A stretch of 64,000 nucleotides of DNA. Source: Veillonella denticariosi JCM 15641. GTDB taxonomy: Bacteria; Bacillota; Negativicutes; Veillonellales; Veillonellaceae. Each line of letters opens with the position of its first letter. Position 1 is the stretch's first letter. Below are positions 20,325-39,846 of this stretch, piece after piece. The notes beneath the pieces are model-generated. The model did no database searches and was not told where the DNA came from. It saw only the letters and a program-made list of their open reading frames with translations. The stretch is taken from contig NZ_PPDB01000003.1 in NCBI RefSeq assembly GCF_002959855.1, forward strand, positions 310,001 through 374,000. Direction: 5' to 3'. The position numbers and the translations under genes are program-made.

Positions 20325-21506
20325 CTACGCTAGCCCGTCAAAGAATGTAATGACCGTAATTTCTCGCGGGCAGTTTATACGAATCGGGAACCAATGGCCG
20401 GATCCATTGTTTACATAGCACACGCTATTTTTTTCCACATAGCGGCCCTTGACGTACGGTGTTCCGATCGGCACCATAGGCATACCGAAGAGAACAATCT
20501 GTCCGCCGTGCGTATGCCCCGACAACGTAAGCGGTATATTACGTTCAATGGCTTCTTCAAAGAACTCAGGATGGTGCGCCAACAGGATGACAAAGGCGTA
20601 GTCGGGAATACCGGACAAGGCCTTTTCCATGAACCGCTCCCGTTCCTCCTTTTCGCGTTTATTATCGTACGCAACACCCGCGATATAGACCGGCTGTCTG
20701 CCGCCCATGATTTGAATATTGCTGTTCACGAGAACATTCATAGGCGTGTTCATCTTCAACTCGTCCAGCACCTTATTCACGTCGTGATGATATTCATGAT
20801 TGCCCAGAATATAATCGACACCGTCAGGGATTTGTTTTGTGAAAGTCGTCAGTCTTTCACAAACCTGAGGCAACCAATCCAATCTGTCGATCAGATCACC
20901 GGTGATTACGACGCGATTCGGTTTTTCTATGAGCGCCATTTTCAGTATTTCATCGAAATCATCGAGGTCGATGCATGGACCGATATGAATATCGCTGAGC
21001 TGTACAATTTTATAGTTCTTAAGTCCCTCAGGTAAATTCGTATAACCGAAAGACTCATGGGTAACAACTACCTCATGCTGCCCAGCAAAGGCCGCATAAC
21101 TCGAGCCGCCCACCGTCGCCAACGGCACCAATGTCGCCGCCGTTCTGAAAAAGGCTCGGCGCCCCGTTCGATTCTCTTCAGGTGTTTTGTCAAATATCTT
21201 ATTAACAATCCAATACAATATGCCTAAGAGTATAAATACGGGAATAGCCAGGAATAAGCCCATCAAAAAACCGTAGCTTTCAGTTCTAAACAGATTCATT
21301 AACGGATAGTACTGCGTGCCGAACAGGTCCGCCTGATACATCATATAGTATACAACCGCCGCAAGCCATCCACCGATTATGAGAATATAGCCTATCCATG
21401 CAGGCCACTTCTTTTTAGGTTTCCACAAATTGAGAAATAGAATCCAAAAGCCCACCAATCCTACAGAAAGGATGGTGAAAACGATTATATTAAATAGTAG
21501 TCTCAT
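20325..21506 (-). CDS. Membrane-anchored calcineurin-like metallophosphoesterase
   Basis: A 393-residue protein with three N-terminal membrane segments (about residues 5-27, 38-58, 75-102), a short basic stretch RRAFFR, another hydrophobic segment (about 125-145), then a calcineurin-like phosphoesterase domain. Metal-binding motifs are all visible: DIHIG (D-x-H), GDLID, GNHEYHHD, and SGHTHGGQ, plus HHPEFF. This matches YkuE-like membrane phosphoesterases, of which some cleave UDP-diacylglucosamine or cyclic nucleotides; the substrate here is unknown. The catalytic domain probably faces outward. It carries an inverted pair of GTGAAAG motifs (20836-20863) inside the coding region. Confidence 0.82.
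   Translation of the reverse strand: MRLLFNIIVFTILSVGLVGFWILFLNLWKPKKKWPAWIGYILIIGGWLAAVVYYMMYQADLFGTQYYPLMNLFRTESYGFLMGLFLAIPVFILLGILYWIVNKIFDKTPEENRTGRRAFFRTAATLVPLATVGGSSYAAFAGQHEVVVTHESFGYTNLPEGLKNYKIVQLSDIHIGPCIDLDDFDEILKMALIEKPNRVVITGDLIDRLDWLPQVCERLTTFTKQIPDGVDYILGNHEYHHDVNKVLDELKMNTPMNVLVNSNIQIMGGRQPVYIAGVAYDNKREKEERERFMEKALSGIPDYAFVILLAHHPEFFEEAIERNIPLTLSGHTHGGQIVLFGMPMVPIGTPYVKGRYVEKNSVCYVNNGSGHWFPIRINCPREITVITFFDGLA
20836..20863. repeat. Inverted pair of GTGAAAG motifs inside a CDS
   Basis: TTTGTGAAAG (20836-20845) and CTTTCACAAA (20854-20863) are perfect 10-bp arms around an 8-nt centre TCGTCAGT. They lie within the metallophosphoesterase coding sequence, so coding needs had to be met alongside the dyad. 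See the finding on the window-wide motif. Confidence 0.8.
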
Positions 21507-32273: not shown

Positions 32274-35200
32274 TTATACTATAATTGCATCATGCAATCT
32301 GAAACTGTAAATATAACATGCTTTCACCGGCATATCGGTGAGCCGACAGAGGGCCTCTTTATAGAGGTCCATTTGTATTTTATAGCGCCTGATGAGTTCA
32401 TCGCCGGATTGAACGCGGTCGGTCTTGTAATCCACGAGAACCCATGCGCCGTCCTCTTCAAAGGCGGTGTCGATAATCCCTTGAAGGAACAGATTCTCGC
32501 CCTCTTCAAGAGTATCGTACACGCGTTTTCCTTCAAAGAGCATACTGAACGGCAACTCCCGTTCCACGCGCTTTGATGCGATTAAACGCTTACCCAGATC
32601 CGATGTGAAGAATCGATACAGGCCCGAATCGTTCAGTAAATTCCGTTCTTCCGCCGTGAAAGTCCCCTTCAATACCAGTTCATCCAACCGTTTTGACAGG
32701 GAGTCCTGCGTATAGGCATCAATCGGCAGCCACTGCATGGCCTCGTGCATGAGGGTCCCCCATTGAGCTCCGGTCAACACGTCCTCTTCGGACTGTAACA
32801 CCCGCGGTTTTCTGCCGAACACGGAATTTGCTAATGCATCGTCATCTACTACAACAGAAGGCTGTAAGGCCATAATGGTATCGGTCTTAGATACCGCCTC
32901 AACACTAGAATCTATATCACCACTGTCAGCGACCTCACTATTAGGCTCTGACTGAACGTTACATGGCGCTCCAATCCTCTCAGACGTTCTTTCGACAGGT
33001 TCTGACCGCGGCAGAGAATCGATATCGCCCGCTTCTTCCTCCCGTTCCTGAAAGCGTCGCTTCAACTCGCTGACGGATATTTTAGCGGTTCTGCGACAGG
33101 CATCTTCGTAGGGATAGGTATAGTTGAACCGATCGACGATAACTTGCGGCAATGCTACCTCATTGACCGCCGCCAATTCGCGCACCTTGCCGATTGTCGT
33201 TTCGTCTATATCGGCTTTGTAATCCAAATCGCCATACGCCGCACCGTCATGTATTTCAACCTTGATACGACATTGTTTATCCTTTAAATCAAAGCATGTA
33301 GAGCCTTCATATTCAATGCCTGCCCGCAACGGATTCCCTCCGTCCAGATGTCGCGCTGTCCCCATGAGGACCCAATCCAAGTAGGAGTTCGCCTGTGTAA
33401 TGAGGTCCTTCGGCAATGTCTGCGTATCTACCGAGGCACCGGCTTTCACCAGTTTTCCCGCAGCGGTCAGGCCCTTTTCACTCGACAGACCTTTAATAAA
33501 GCCCGTCATGAAGAGTTTATCCCGAGCCCGCGTCAACGCAACATAGAGAATACGCTGTTCCTCAGCCTTGAGGGCCGCTTCTTTGACGTCTTTCACATAA
33601 AACCACGGCATGGTCGGATATGTGACGCGTATATCCGGATAATAGCCCTTAAGCCCGATGCCGGCGTTCTTATCGATGAGCAGCGGCGACGTCAAATCGC
33701 GTTTATTGAACCGCTTCTGCATGCCCGACAAGAACACCACAGGAAATTCGAGGCCCTTACTCTTGTGAATCGTCATGAGTCGCACCACATCGTCCGCTTC
33801 GGTAACCACGTTCGCCACCGCCATATCCTGATTGCTGTCACGCAAGCTTTCAACAAAGCGCAAAAATCTGAACAGGCCTCGGAATCCGGACGATTCAAAG
33901 CCCTTCGCCCTCTCGTACAACGCCAGCACATTGGCGCGACGCACTAGGCCGTTCGGCATGGCGCCCACATAGTTTACATAATCCTGAGATTCGTAAATAT
34001 CCCACAACAGATCGGCCACCCCGTGACGGCGAGACAATGTACGCCACCGCTCCATATGAGCGATAAACGACAGCAGCCGTTCATCCTGCGTCCGCTCCGT
34101 ATAAACCGGCATGAGGGTCCACAAAGTCCCCTCTCCGGAAAGGCGAAGCGCACCCAGTTCATTGGCATCGAGGCCGACCAGCCCCGAATGAAGAACGGCC
34201 GCCATCGGCAAGTCCTGCTCCGGATTGTCGATAACGGATAGCAGTGCTAAAAGCAGCTGAATCTCCTGGGCCTCGAAGTATCCGTCCCGCTCGTTCACGA
34301 CCGCAGGGATCCCAGCCTGTCGCATAGCCTCCACGGCACGAGTGCCCCAACCGGCAAGGGAACGGCGCAACACGGCAAAATCCCGCCACTCGATCTGACG
34401 AAATGTGCCGTCCGGATTCTGAACGCACTTTTTGGAGGCGTGAATCTCCTTGATTTTTTGAATTATAAAATCAAGTTCCCGCTCGTTATTCTCCGGCTCA
34501 TCCCTGTCCTCTTCTGCGTCTTTCACATAAGCGCCGAGCGTATCAGGGCCCACATCGAGCAGTTGCAGTTCCACGTCGCCGCCGACCCAGTTATCCGGTG
34601 CATCCTCCACGATACGCCCCGGAATGAGGGATTCCCGCTCCGTGTAATTCAGTTCGGCCGCTTCGGCGGTCATAATCTGATAGAACAGAAAATTCGTCAC
34701 CGCCAGAATATTTTCATAGGACCGGAAATTCTTCGCCAAATCGATACGGCGCTCCACCGCATCAGATCCGCCGTACGTATTATACTTATCCATAAACAGA
34801 GAGCTGTCCGCCATGCGGAAACTGTAAATCGCCTGCTTAACGTCACCCACATAAAATCGATTATCCTCTTTGGAAATCAAGTTGATAATCGTCTCCTGCA
34901 CCCCGTTCGTATCCTGGTATTCGTCGACCATGATTTCCTTGAAAGTATCCTGCAGTTCCTTCGCCACATCGGACGGTTGAGGGTCATCTTCCGTTCCTGG
35001 CTCCACGAGGAGCGCCAGGCACAGATGCTCAAGGTCGTTAAAGTCCATGACGCCCTGTTCCTTCTTCGCCTCCATATAGGCTTGGTGAAAGGCGATGGTA
35101 AGCTCCACAAGGTTCTCAATGACAGGATACTGAGACCTGAACTGCTCCTGCAATGTCGATTCCGACACGGTGAATATACCGGATTGCATGCTTTTCAAAT

Positions 35201-36164
35201 CATCTTTATTCTGATTGGCCAATATTTTGAATTCTTCAACCAAAGCAGGATCCAGGGATGCGGCCTCTTTCGAGCCCAATCGCAACTGATCCGTTAAAAA
35301 CGTATCCAGATGTGCACAGGCGGAGCCCATTGCATCCCAAGAATCGGCCGAAACGAGGGTCATAAGGCCGGCCAGCTGATTATCATAATTTTTCTGCCAC
35401 TTTTGAGGGCCTGCCGGTTCTAAGAGAATCTGCTCCATCCGCCGCAACCGTTCCTTGATGCGTTCAATGGCCTCCATCTGCTTGTCCCACATGGATTGGC
35501 CCCACAAGGTGTCCACAGGCGATACATCCATCGCTTCCCTGTACGGCTCCAAAGCGCGGCGCAGCCATCCGTCGGGATTACTGAGGGACATGGCGTAATT
35601 ATATAGCGCCATCACCTTCTCTGATAAGCCCATATCGGATTTATCATCGCTGAAGAAGTCCGCCAGTTCATAAATATTATAACTGCCGTTCTCATAGGCC
35701 ACTTTCAGCAGATCCTCCAGCACCTCCTGTTGCAGAAGCGCCATTTCCGCCTCGTTTCCGATGCGTGCGGTCGGATTGATGTCGAGTTTGTAAAAGTACG
35801 AACGGATCACCCACTGACAGAAGGAGTGAAGCGTTGAAATATGAGCGGACGGCAACAGATTGAGCTGCCGTTCCAATCGCGCCTGCAGCTTCGGATCATC
35901 TGTGGATTCCATGGCCTTTGCCAATGCCAGCCCGATACGGGAGCTCATCTCCTGCGCCGCCGCCTTCGTGAAGGTTACAACCATCAGTTCCTGTACGGAT
36001 AACGGATTGTCCATATCCTTGAGACGCGTAATGATACGTTCCACGAGGACCGCCGTCTTACCGGATCCCGCTGCGGCCGCCACCAGCAAGGTCTGAGCCG
36101 ACAGAGCCGAATCCTTCGGTGCGATAATCGCCGATTCCTGTTCAGGCGTCCACTTAACAGCCAT
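32274..36164 (-). CDS. addA: AddA helicase-nuclease subunit
   Basis: AddA is the UvrD-like helicase and 3'-strand nuclease subunit of AddAB, which processes double-strand breaks for RecA loading. The 1296-residue protein shows Walker A AAAGSGKTAVL near residue 33, the Walker B region VDEYQDTNGVQ, VTFTKAAAQEM, and the helicase motif IHKSKGLEFPVVF. The C-terminal RecB-like nuclease motif is LVDYKTDRV, with upstream Asp in GIIDTAF. An acidic, low-complexity linker of about 100 residues (about 1030-1130) separates helicase and nuclease. ATG 36164 lies within the end of addB, with AAGGAG 9 nt upstream. Chi in related bacteria is a 5-7-mer; the overrepresented GTGAAAG motif makes this operon relevant. 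Confidence 0.95.
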   Translation of the reverse strand: MAVKWTPEQESAIIAPKDSALSAQTLLVAAAAGSGKTAVLVERIITRLKDMDNPLSVQELMVVTFTKAAAQEMSSRIGLALAKAMESTDDPKLQARLERQLNLLPSAHISTLHSFCQWVIRSYFYKLDINPTARIGNEAEMALLQQEVLEDLLKVAYENGSYNIYELADFFSDDKSDMGLSEKVMALYNYAMSLSNPDGWLRRALEPYREAMDVSPVDTLWGQSMWDKQMEAIERIKERLRRMEQILLEPAGPQKWQKNYDNQLAGLMTLVSADSWDAMGSACAHLDTFLTDQLRLGSKEAASLDPALVEEFKILANQNKDDLKSMQSGIFTVSESTLQEQFRSQYPVIENLVELTIAFHQAYMEAKKEQGVMDFNDLEHLCLALLVEPGTEDDPQPSDVAKELQDTFKEIMVDEYQDTNGVQETIINLISKEDNRFYVGDVKQAIYSFRMADSSLFMDKYNTYGGSDAVERRIDLAKNFRSYENILAVTNFLFYQIMTAEAAELNYTERESLIPGRIVEDAPDNWVGGDVELQLLDVGPDTLGAYVKDAEEDRDEPENNERELDFIIQKIKEIHASKKCVQNPDGTFRQIEWRDFAVLRRSLAGWGTRAVEAMRQAGIPAVVNERDGYFEAQEIQLLLALLSVIDNPEQDLPMAAVLHSGLVGLDANELGALRLSGEGTLWTLMPVYTERTQDERLLSFIAHMERWRTLSRRHGVADLLWDIYESQDYVNYVGAMPNGLVRRANVLALYERAKGFESSGFRGLFRFLRFVESLRDSNQDMAVANVVTEADDVVRLMTIHKSKGLEFPVVFLSGMQKRFNKRDLTSPLLIDKNAGIGLKGYYPDIRVTYPTMPWFYVKDVKEAALKAEEQRILYVALTRARDKLFMTGFIKGLSSEKGLTAAGKLVKAGASVDTQTLPKDLITQANSYLDWVLMGTARHLDGGNPLRAGIEYEGSTCFDLKDKQCRIKVEIHDGAAYGDLDYKADIDETTIGKVRELAAVNEVALPQVIVDRFNYTYPYEDACRRTAKISVSELKRRFQEREEEAGDIDSLPRSEPVERTSERIGAPCNVQSEPNSEVADSGDIDSSVEAVSKTDTIMALQPSVVVDDDALANSVFGRKPRVLQSEEDVLTGAQWGTLMHEAMQWLPIDAYTQDSLSKRLDELVLKGTFTAEERNLLNDSGLYRFFTSDLGKRLIASKRVERELPFSMLFEGKRVYDTLEEGENLFLQGIIDTAFEEDGAWVLVDYKTDRVQSGDELIRRYKIQMDLYKEALCRLTDMPVKACYIYSFRLHDAIIV

Positions 36165-39100
36165 AGTCTTCATCTCCTTCATTCAATGCTTCTTTCATAG
36201 AGTTCAGCGCATCCTCTTCCGCCAGTCTGGATAAATAATTGTATTGATTGCGACTCGAATCAAAGCGGCACACGTTCTGATATTCGCAATAGGTACACGG
36301 CCGTACGCCGTTCAGCTGATACGGCTTGATAGGAAACAATCCATCCCCTATCTGCTGTCCCGCCCGAGCCATCACGCGACGAGTATACCGGCACATAACG
36401 TCAAAGTCGCCGGAGCTCTTCACCTTAGGCTTGTCGCCTTTATAAATCTGCTGATTCTTACCGATGCGAAGCGGCACGTAAGGCCCTTTACCGGAGCCAT
36501 AATTAAGCACCTGATTGTCAATGTGCGTCAACAGCTCCACATCATCCGCAAAATAACCGCTGTTCTGCAAGGTGCTGTTCTTCTTAGCCAGCTCCGACGC
36601 ATCATCATAGGATATAGGCGCATCCGACGATGTCTGCGGATTCTTAACATACGTATATACGACCGCAGCCGGAGACATCGAATCGCCATGCATTCTGCCG
36701 TATGCGGATTCCAATGCCAGTAAATATGTCATCAGCTGCAACTTGAGTCCGTAATACACATCCTGAGCGCTCACCTTGGCACCGCCCGACTTGTAGTCGA
36801 TAACCATGCCGTACGTTTGACCGTCCGCGGTATATTCATCGATTCTGTCGATCTGTCCCACAAGGCGGAGATAGCGATCAGCGCCGAGAGGCACATTAAT
36901 CGAATCCCAGCCGCCTCCGAGGCCGAAATTCTGCTCCAGATACTTCGTATTGAAATCGCTGCGCTTCGACCATTCCACGAGACGTCCTACGGTCGATTCC
37001 AAGGTGCGCTGCACACGATGCTCGATAGCCTCCTGATAGGCGGAACTTTCATCCTCGCTGAACTGGTTGTCCTTCACGATTTCATCGGCAACGGCGCTGC
37101 ACATTTCACGCTGTGTCCTTTCATCCAGATCGCGCCACTGCTGATTATGTTCCAGCAGATAATTGCCGAGGCGCTCCAAATTGGCGTGCAGAAAGGTACC
37201 GATTTCAGGCGCGCCGAAGGAACGCACCTTGCGCGGTTCCAGTCGCAATCCGTACTGTGCATAGAAGCGGAACGGACATTGCTGATATTTTTCAAGGCGC
37301 GTCACGGAGCCGGACATGTAACCCTTTGATAAGAACAGACCGTTTACCAAATCCTGCGTAATGACCGGCACATCATTATTATCTCGAATACCGCGCGACA
37401 CCTCAGCCAATCTCGGCCGATATTCCGCACTTTCACGAGCCCAGTTATAAAGGCCCCACCACACGGGACTCACAGGTTCGCCGCTAAGAAGCGCCCCCCA
37501 TCGTTCCGACAGGAGGGACAGGCTCTGATTCGGACGCCATAAGTAGCGTTCTTCCGTATCGGGCATGATGATAAGCGGCACATCAACGGCCTCATCCACA
37601 TAACCGAGCGATTCCAGACGCTTAATCACAAGGGCCGGTTCAAGCCCCGTACCGTCCTCGCCGGATCCGGCATAGGACAATGTCAACGAATCTCCTCCTC
37701 TTGTCATCGCCAGGTAGAGCAGGAAATTTTCGTTGAACGCCTTCGGCAGTGCCCCTTCCGCAAGGGTAATGCCGGCCTCGGCCAATTCCTGACGCTCCCG
37801 GTCCTTGATGAGTCCTTCATCGCCCATGCTTTGCGGGAATACGCCCTGATTGAGGCCCATCACGAAAACCTTCGGCCACCACTGACTATATCCGCGCTCG
37901 ATGGTGGTGATTACCACATGATCTAGAGACGGCGGAATCATGGAGTAATTGATATCACGCAAGCCTTCTTCGAGGAGCAGCATCATCTCATCTAACGTGA
38001 GAATTTCATCCTTCATCACCGACGATACTTCGTCAATGAACGAAATGACCGCATTATACATCTGCTCATGACTCGCCTTGGACTCCTGATCTCCGCTCGC
38101 CTCGGCATCCTGAGTCCATTCATAGAGGCGGTGCGGCACCTGCAGTACCTCTAAAATGCGATACAGCTCGGCGCCCCATTCGCCGCCCGTATGGCCCTCC
38201 GCATTCGATGCGAAATCAAACCACGGCGACAAAATATCCATGATAATCTGACGGGACACATTTACACGCGCTCTGCGGGGCGCATCAAAATGGGTTTCCT
38301 CATCGTCCCTCCCCCTTTGAAAGCCCTGTAAATACGACCAGCTTTCAGATTCCCATTTATAATGATCGATACCGAATTCGAGAACGTAATTTTCCAATTC
38401 ATCGACGGCCTCGCGCGTAAGAGGCATTAAATCCGTTTTCAATAAACGGAACATGCTGTCACGACTGTAGCTATGACGGACGACACCGAATAAATCCGTC
38501 AACAGTTCTCCTAACGGATGATTTTTCATCGGTCGCTGACGGTCGATAAAATGTGGAATACCGTAACGGGTAAAAACCTTTTCCAATGTGTCCCCATAGG
38601 TTTCCGATTCGCGCAGCATAACGCACACATCGCGATACCGCGCACCTTCAGAGGATTCCACATAATCCAATATACGCCGCGCCACCGCATCGCCTTCGCG
38701 CTCCCGATTATGCCCTCTGATGAGGGGAATCTGCTCATCCGTAGAGTTCGCCCTTGCAGGACTCGTAAAGAAATCGGACTCTAACGCCTGTACCACCCGG
38801 GGCCCCCGCTTGCCGTCAAAGCCTACCCATTCGATTCGGCTACCATATCGGGCAACCAACGTGTCGTAGATTTCAAGAGGACGGCTGAACAGATGCTCTC
38901 CGCGGCGTGCAACATTAAGCGCTTCGGGATCCATCGGCAAATCGACGGTGATAACCGCTTCCTTCGCCAGATCAAACAGAGTATAAATCAGTTCATAATG
39001 AGTCGGCGTAAACCAATGGAAACCGTCGATAAAGACATGGCAATTCTCCATCAACGGGGAGTGCGGCAACGCCTCCACGATTTCCATGATCGGGTCTATA

Positions 39101-39633
39101 TCGCGCTCGCCGTGACGGCTGATCTCTTCTTCGTATGCCGCCATGCATAGAGCGAGTTCACGCAACTTCTTCTGCAACACACCGTTCTTTACGGATTCAG
39201 CGCCGCGTTCCAGATCATCCGGCCCGATGCGAAATGCACGAAACTCGGAGAATAATTGTTGCAGCACCGATGAGAACTCAGGACGTTTCGTCGCCTGTTC
39301 CAGGAGCCCTAATTCCTGCTGTTTGCGCTTCATCACAAGGCGCAGCAACATGGCGCGACCGAACGCTGTCAATCCCGATTGGTGATCCCCTTTGGAACCG
39401 ATAGACTGGTACACTTGGTATCCGAGGCGTCCAAAGCCTACAACCCGCACCGTCGTAAAACCTTTTTGAGGCATAAACTCCGCCAGTTCCCGTTCCACCC
39501 GATAGGTGGCCGGTTCGGGCACGAGCAGAATAATCGGGTCCCCCGGGCATTCTTTCATCACTTGTGCAATACGCGCATAAACGGCCTGCGTCTTGCCGGA
39601 TCCGGCGCGTCCGTAATATATACTGATACTCAT
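36154..39633 (-). CDS. addB: AddB helicase-nuclease subunit
   Basis: AddB is the second subunit of AddAB; in studied systems it reads Chi and cuts the 5' strand. The 1159-residue protein starts with a Walker A YGRAGSGKTQAV and ends with a RecB-family nuclease domain: GQIDRIDEY and MVIDYKSGGAKV. The four [4Fe-4S] cysteines are recognisable: one in YQQCPFRFY (about residue 800) and three in CTYCEYQNVC near the C-terminus. The start at 39633 has GGGAGG 4 nt upstream. addB overlaps addA by 11 bp, so they are one operon. A perfect 18-bp palindrome made of two GTGAAAG motifs lies immediately upstream. Confidence 0.95.
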   Translation of the reverse strand: MSISIYYGRAGSGKTQAVYARIAQVMKECPGDPIILLVPEPATYRVERELAEFMPQKGFTTVRVVGFGRLGYQVYQSIGSKGDHQSGLTAFGRAMLLRLVMKRKQQELGLLEQATKRPEFSSVLQQLFSEFRAFRIGPDDLERGAESVKNGVLQKKLRELALCMAAYEEEISRHGERDIDPIMEIVEALPHSPLMENCHVFIDGFHWFTPTHYELIYTLFDLAKEAVITVDLPMDPEALNVARRGEHLFSRPLEIYDTLVARYGSRIEWVGFDGKRGPRVVQALESDFFTSPARANSTDEQIPLIRGHNREREGDAVARRILDYVESSEGARYRDVCVMLRESETYGDTLEKVFTRYGIPHFIDRQRPMKNHPLGELLTDLFGVVRHSYSRDSMFRLLKTDLMPLTREAVDELENYVLEFGIDHYKWESESWSYLQGFQRGRDDEETHFDAPRRARVNVSRQIIMDILSPWFDFASNAEGHTGGEWGAELYRILEVLQVPHRLYEWTQDAEASGDQESKASHEQMYNAVISFIDEVSSVMKDEILTLDEMMLLLEEGLRDINYSMIPPSLDHVVITTIERGYSQWWPKVFVMGLNQGVFPQSMGDEGLIKDRERQELAEAGITLAEGALPKAFNENFLLYLAMTRGGDSLTLSYAGSGEDGTGLEPALVIKRLESLGYVDEAVDVPLIIMPDTEERYLWRPNQSLSLLSERWGALLSGEPVSPVWWGLYNWARESAEYRPRLAEVSRGIRDNNDVPVITQDLVNGLFLSKGYMSGSVTRLEKYQQCPFRFYAQYGLRLEPRKVRSFGAPEIGTFLHANLERLGNYLLEHNQQWRDLDERTQREMCSAVADEIVKDNQFSEDESSAYQEAIEHRVQRTLESTVGRLVEWSKRSDFNTKYLEQNFGLGGGWDSINVPLGADRYLRLVGQIDRIDEYTADGQTYGMVIDYKSGGAKVSAQDVYYGLKLQLMTYLLALESAYGRMHGDSMSPAAVVYTYVKNPQTSSDAPISYDDASELAKKNSTLQNSGYFADDVELLTHIDNQVLNYGSGKGPYVPLRIGKNQQIYKGDKPKVKSSGDFDVMCRYTRRVMARAGQQIGDGLFPIKPYQLNGVRPCTYCEYQNVCRFDSSRNQYNYLSRLAEEDALNSMKEALNEGDEDYGC

Positions 39634-39643
39634 GAGACCTCCC

Positions 39644-39661
39644 TGGTGAAAGCTTTCACCA
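39644..39661. promoter_or_regulatory. 18-bp perfect palindrome of two GTGAAAG motifs upstream of addB
   Basis: TGGTGAAAGCTTTCACCA (39644-39661) is a perfect palindrome that begins 11 bp before the addB start codon, just upstream of its GGGAGG ribosome-binding site. It contains the window-wide motif GTGAAAG on both strands, abutting. It could be an operator, a translation-control hairpin, or simply a double signal site. Confidence 0.75.
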
Positions 39662-39846
39662 TCTCAATAGTAAATCGTCAAATCATAAGAGAAGATACAA
39701 ATATCTCCACTATCTTTATATTATACTATTATATACTATCGGGCCGATTTATCGTATATTACGCAGTATTTATATCCGTTATCATACAGTCTTCATATCC
39801 GTCAAGTCGTTCTCAGTTTATAGTTGGTAATTTATTTTATGTTTTA

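Follow-up and report, generated by a model that had tools for sequence, protein, structure and literature searches.

The leader of addB in Veillonella denticariosi JCM 15641 is a real, modestly interesting conserved element. The perfect palindrome at its center may form part of a stem-loop in the 5′ UTR by which translation of addB is limited or tuned, a reading that is suggested by predicted folding and to which we give a probability of about 0.45. The leader lies in the window, the whole stretch of 64,000 nucleotides of DNA analyzed here. The same palindrome contains two copies of GTGAAAG, a word that is abundant throughout the genome, and the role of the leader and that of the word are best treated as separate matters.

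The Palindrome and the addBA Operon

The first-pass annotation, made from sequence alone, had assigned the DNA to Veillonella and the gene to addB, and both assignments are correct: the product carries ADDB_N, UvrD_C, and PDDEXK_1 domains, and addA overlaps its end downstream, so that addB and addA form an operon. The best NCBIfam match to the addB product is TIGR02773, which spans the full length with an E-value of 1e-228, yet scores under the curated cut-off. The annotation had also described a perfect 18-bp palindrome made of two abutting GTGAAAG copies ahead of addB. The sequence bears this out, with TGGTGAAAGCTTTCACCA at 39644–39661 on the plus strand, 10 bases from the addB ATG. The 18-mer occurs once in the window genome. 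The features of the locus are as follows.

32274..36182, minus strand: addA, 1302 aa, overlapping the end of addB; TIGR02785 above cut-off
36154..39633, minus strand: addB, 1159 aa; TIGR02773 below curated cut-off
39634..39637, minus strand: UCUC, adjoining the ATG and forming the 3′ side of the outer stem in the prediction; invariant in nine genomes (from folding)
39638..39644, minus strand: Shine-Dalgarno AGGGAGG, most of it inside the 6-nt bulge that separates the predicted stems (from sequence and fold)
39644..39661, minus strand: 18-bp perfect palindrome; as RNA, a predicted 7-bp stem UGGUGAA/UUCACCA with loop AGCU
39646..39652, plus strand: GTGAAAG copy 1, opposite to the direction of addB; missing from the leaders of seven parvula-group relatives
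39653..39659, minus strand: GTGAAAG copy 2, in the direction of addB; retained in eight of nine leaders, GTGAACG in V. infantium
39662..39665, minus strand: GAGA, forming the 5′ side of the outer stem in the prediction; invariant in nine genomes (from folding)
39682..39709, minus strand: candidate addB promoter TGGAGA-16-TATGAT, a weak match that does not rise above shuffles

An intrinsic terminator was considered and rejected, as the intergenic region holds none: a T-run is lacking and the position is wrong.

Conservation of the addB Leader

The addB leaders of 15 Veillonella genomes, including V. agrestimuris, were compared. A near-invariant leader, TGAGATGGTGAA-N3/4-TTCAC(T/C)AGGGAGGTCTC followed directly by ATG, is common to nine genomes, which represent essentially two lineages. 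The perfect GTGAAAG doublet is found in the window genome and its sister G009 (97% AddB identity). A single GTGAAAG copy, within GTGAAAGTTTCAC, is present in six genomes, among them V. parvula and V. rogosae, and the V. infantium leader, with GTGAACGTTTCAC, has none. Conservation of the palindrome in close relatives had been proposed as the check on its importance, and the outcome is split, since the doublet is confined to 2 of the 15 genomes and the inverted repeat is kept in 9. What persists is a variably spaced inverted repeat together with GAGA and TCTC arms able to enclose the Shine-Dalgarno sequence. Both the TCTC spacer, which runs from the Shine-Dalgarno sequence to the ATG, and its partner GAGA are invariant in the nine genomes. 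The element is absent from the six divergent species among the 15 (AddB identity 70% or less), which indicates that it is not essential for addB within the genus.

The conserved block is more than 30 nt long and extends up to the start codon, and the DNA immediately upstream is scrambled between species. Measured against V. parvula, conservation of the addB leader exceeds that of 95% of 41 ORF-free leaders matched for protein identity, and about 10% of all 57 identity-matched leaders are conserved at least as well. The latter figure is compatible with ordinary conservation, that is, an extended Shine-Dalgarno region with a chance inverted repeat and no regulatory role. GTGAAAG is also common in leaders: a set of 131 sixty-bp leaders from the window genome contains 13 copies, so that its presence in any one of them is not rare. 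Set against this are the length of the invariant block, the retention of both arms, and the divergence of the adjacent upstream DNA, and we regard ordinary conservation as a rather unlikely explanation.

Relative to the 13-nt inverted repeat of the relatives, the perfect palindrome of this lineage differs by one additional C and a U-to-C exchange, and the second GTGAAAG, which comes with it, probably arose by chance. Across 294 kb of the contig that holds the window, GTGAAAG occurs 253 times, from which roughly 0.1 abutting convergent pairs would be expected there, and a few tenths per genome; at such a density the doublet is not very improbable. V. parvula also has one abutting convergent GTGAAAG pair, which lies within an ORF. 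Furthermore, 19 of 32 close GTGAAAG pairs are convergent (p = 4e-5), a general tendency that would favor a convergent doublet. Hairpins with arms of up to 18 bp are formed by convergent GTGAAAG pairs at 20839–20860 of the window and at about 10 sites in the 294 kb, several of them intergenic.

Predicted Fold of the Leader

In the predicted fold, an upper stem UGGUGAA/UUCACCA closes a 3–4 nt loop, an outer stem GAGA/UCUC adjoins the AUG, and the Shine-Dalgarno sequence sits in the six-base bulge between them. The segment from −38 to +10, which includes ten coding bases, folds at −15.3 kcal/mol (z = −2.0), an energy below that of about 98% of 131 Veillonella leaders. The 38-nt leader alone gives z = −0.85, with 20–33% of shuffles folding as well. 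A pairing check indicates that all nine leaders are able to form the stem-loop, and the predicted minimum-energy fold of the V. infantium leader is a different one. Within the stem-loop, 100% of cells in the nine-leader comparison are paired, vs. 36–55% in slid controls. The leaders differ at loop positions (A to C, and one additional C) or by the exchange of a G-U pair for G-C, which keeps the pair. That exchange is the single one-sided change in the nine leaders; two-sided compensatory changes number zero, and 10 of the 11 pairs never vary. This makes the pairing plausible rather than proved, and the lack of covariation speaks for ordinary conservation.

From the sequence, the identity of the gene, the predicted fold, and the conservation of the leader across nine genomes, we infer that the leader may fold in the cell, influence translation, and serve regulation. 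The palindrome would be the upper stem of a short 5′-UTR stem-loop on the addBA mRNA, in which GGUGAA pairs with UUCACC (or UUCACU) over the loop of 3–4 nt. Pairing of GAGA with UCUC by the start codon would leave the Shine-Dalgarno sequence bulged and place the AUG against the stem. Such a structure would hinder 30S loading, and AddAB, a powerful nuclease, would be held at a low or tunable output. The leader resembles known translation-limiting stem-loops near the ribosome binding site in that its Shine-Dalgarno sequence is bulged between two predicted stems and its start codon abuts a stem. It differs from them in having no Rfam match above the gathering score, being recognized here from its sequence and predicted fold. 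The Rfam search of the window returned sub-threshold matches located elsewhere in the stretch, and assignment of the leader to a known RNA family was accordingly rejected.

A DNA Operator as an Alternative

The inverted repeat can also be read at the DNA level, with GTGAA-N3/4-TTCAC as an operator, at or just downstream of the transcription start, through which a dimeric regulator would repress the addBA promoter. The repeat is symmetric, more so in this lineage, and conserved, and it is sited where repressor operators often are. In addition, of 14 Veillonella genomes, 13 hold 1–5 copies of the 13-mer GTGAAANTTTCAC, vs. 0–1 for the reversed control; in V. parvula, two copies are found in gene leaders, one that of glmM and the other that of a helix-turn-helix-like gene. 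However, the overall abundance of GTGAAAG partly accounts for the other copies, and a number of the inspected palindromes are located in ORFs. GTGAAANTTTCAC may define a single regulon, but the sites are few and their context is mixed. The conserved block at addB also spans the Shine-Dalgarno sequence and the spacer, more than an operator would require, and the half-site spacing shifts by 1 bp between lineages. This change from 3 to 4 nt mildly favors an RNA loop over a rigid protein operator.

Taken together, the conservation of the leader, its fold, the kept pairing, and the change in spacing favor the translation-limiting stem-loop, with the operator second and, in our estimation, unlikely. 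The first-pass annotation had named an operator or translation hairpin as its fallback to Chi. That branch is the better supported one, and within it the hairpin is preferred to the operator.

Among known operators, that of Rex (TTGTGAANNNNTTCACAA; TTGTGAA-N4-TTCACAA) has a fixed spacing. The GTGAANNNNTTCAC core is matched in the window lineage, but the addB palindrome is flanked by GG and CC rather than TT and AA. These flanks, together with the 3-nt spacing in seven relatives, do not fit a Rex operator, which was rejected. Separately, GTGAAACTTTCAC palindromes lie in leaders just 5′ of the Shine-Dalgarno sequence at V. parvula 377565–377577 (glmM) and 430873–430885 (the helix-turn-helix-like gene), and may represent a shared element.

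GTGAAAG as a Genome-Wide Word

Word statistics were drawn from the V. parvula SKV38 genome and from the 294 kb of contig. The over-representation of GTGAAAG reported by the first-pass annotation is confirmed, with 56 copies in the window vs. 6.35 ± 2.34 in dinucleotide shuffles, and 1,141 (583 + 558) in the window genome vs. 181 (94 + 87) for the reversed control word. It is the top over-represented 7-mer in V. parvula, where 949 copies compare with 273 expected under a second-order Markov model, and genes hold 764 vs. 293 in codon shuffles that preserve all protein sequences. Enrichment is seen in every permitted reading frame, on both gene strands, and in intergenic DNA, which indicates that GTGAAAG is a DNA-level word. 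Its core is 7 bp, with flanks contributing at most 0.33 bit per position. In V. parvula its density drops about twofold from origin to terminus, exceeding the codon-shuffle expectation. The excess is clear in all Veillonella genomes examined but one, weaker in a sister genus, and little or none in two further genera and in other families. The sole Veillonella genome with hardly any excess (G004; AddB 52% identity) is also low in excess of TGATGCGG, a word discussed below.

Chi in Veillonella

Chi acts on AddAB travelling along DNA from a break. It is active in a single orientation and, as a rule, is found mostly on the leading strand; we know of no local role of Chi at AddAB's own promoter. 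Direction dependence of AddAB at Chi has been demonstrated in Caulobacter (PMC5443536), and the known sites include AGCGG in B. subtilis, GAAGCGG in S. aureus, and GCGCGTG in lactococci and streptococci (PMC5959072). A literature search found no paper on Chi in Veillonella. GTGAAAG resembles the AddAB/RexAB Chi sites in being short, over-represented, and non-palindromic in a host with AddAB, and its length is within the known range. It differs from them in being A-rich and nearly unpolarized, and its presence at the addB site is not conserved.

The first-pass annotation had suggested that, were GTGAAAG Chi, the operon for the Chi-reading enzyme would carry a double Chi at its head. The rank of the word among V. 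parvula 7-mers speaks for this, but the proposal founders on the small number of genomes that hold the doublet, on the lack of any copy in the V. infantium leader, and on the weak polarity of the word. In V. parvula, 574 copies are on the leading strand vs. 375 on the lagging strand (60% leading), and the intergenic copies among them split 104 vs. 82. The excess over codon shuffles is 58% leading, despite 87–88% of genes being leading. Thus, the over-representation expected of Chi is found, the leading-strand polarity and the positional conservation of two copies are not, and we consider a double Chi at addB highly improbable.

A better candidate for the Chi of Veillonella, judged from word statistics, is TGATGCGG, with 204 copies on the leading strand vs. 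40 on the other in V. parvula (84% leading) and 38 vs. 6 in the window's contig. Its polarity is stronger than that of GTGAAAG, and its end, GCGG, is shared with AGCGG and GAAGCGG. In V. parvula it is 3.7-fold enriched over codon shuffles, with all one-base neighbors at about 1.7-fold or less, and the window genome holds 296 copies vs. 31 of the reversed control. It is in excess across the family. Caution is called for, since most copies occupy a single codon frame and intergenic DNA shows no enrichment. Its leading-strand copies in V. parvula thin toward the terminus, from 61 to 8 per fifth of the genome. Two further words, AGGGGCT and GAAGGGG, were rejected as Chi; they are leading-biased but largely limited to one sense codon frame, and so may reflect codon context. 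GAAGGGG (193 vs. 20 on the leading strand in V. parvula, mostly in one codon frame) is a possible polar word of the FtsK/SpoIIIE type.

GTGAAAG as a Possible Uptake Word

V. parvula is naturally competent and prefers genomic DNA (PMC5397411). A DNA uptake sequence (DUS) has been sought in this species; no clear one was found and the question was left open, with the authors arguing that the preference is unlikely to be due to DUS (PMC5397411). ComEC is present. The mostly convergent arrangement of close pairs, the low polarity of the enrichment, and natural competence suggest that GTGAAAG is possibly uptake-like. The DUS and USS of Neisseriaceae and Pasteurellaceae are likewise abundant on both strands and often occur as convergent pairs in naturally competent diderms. 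However, GTGAAAG is shorter, with weak flanks and much weaker enrichment, and lacks the long (9–12 bp), hugely over-represented core of those words. Known uptake sequences are enriched far above the 2.6–4 fold found for GTGAAAG in genes relative to codon shuffles.

That the addB palindrome is simply an inverted pair of such an uptake-signal-like word, placed before the gene by the word's own spread, is improbable, the more so because the doublet there is confined to two genomes. A broader form of this proposal, drawn from sequence statistics, would make GTGAAAG a short, unpolarized uptake or self-recognition word of the diderm Firmicute Veillonella, with TGATGCGG as the true Chi and the addB palindrome as one convergent pair among others. 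We hold it to be doubtful; if true, it would to our knowledge be the first of its kind in Veillonella.

Implications

Two questions that the palindrome had joined, the control of addB through its leader and the function of GTGAAAG across the genome, thus come apart. The addB site gives no ground for taking GTGAAAG as Chi, and with TGATGCGG as a candidate, Chi in Veillonella becomes testable. Ultimately, the addB leader stands as a conserved candidate control element of the main double-strand-break nuclease of Veillonella.
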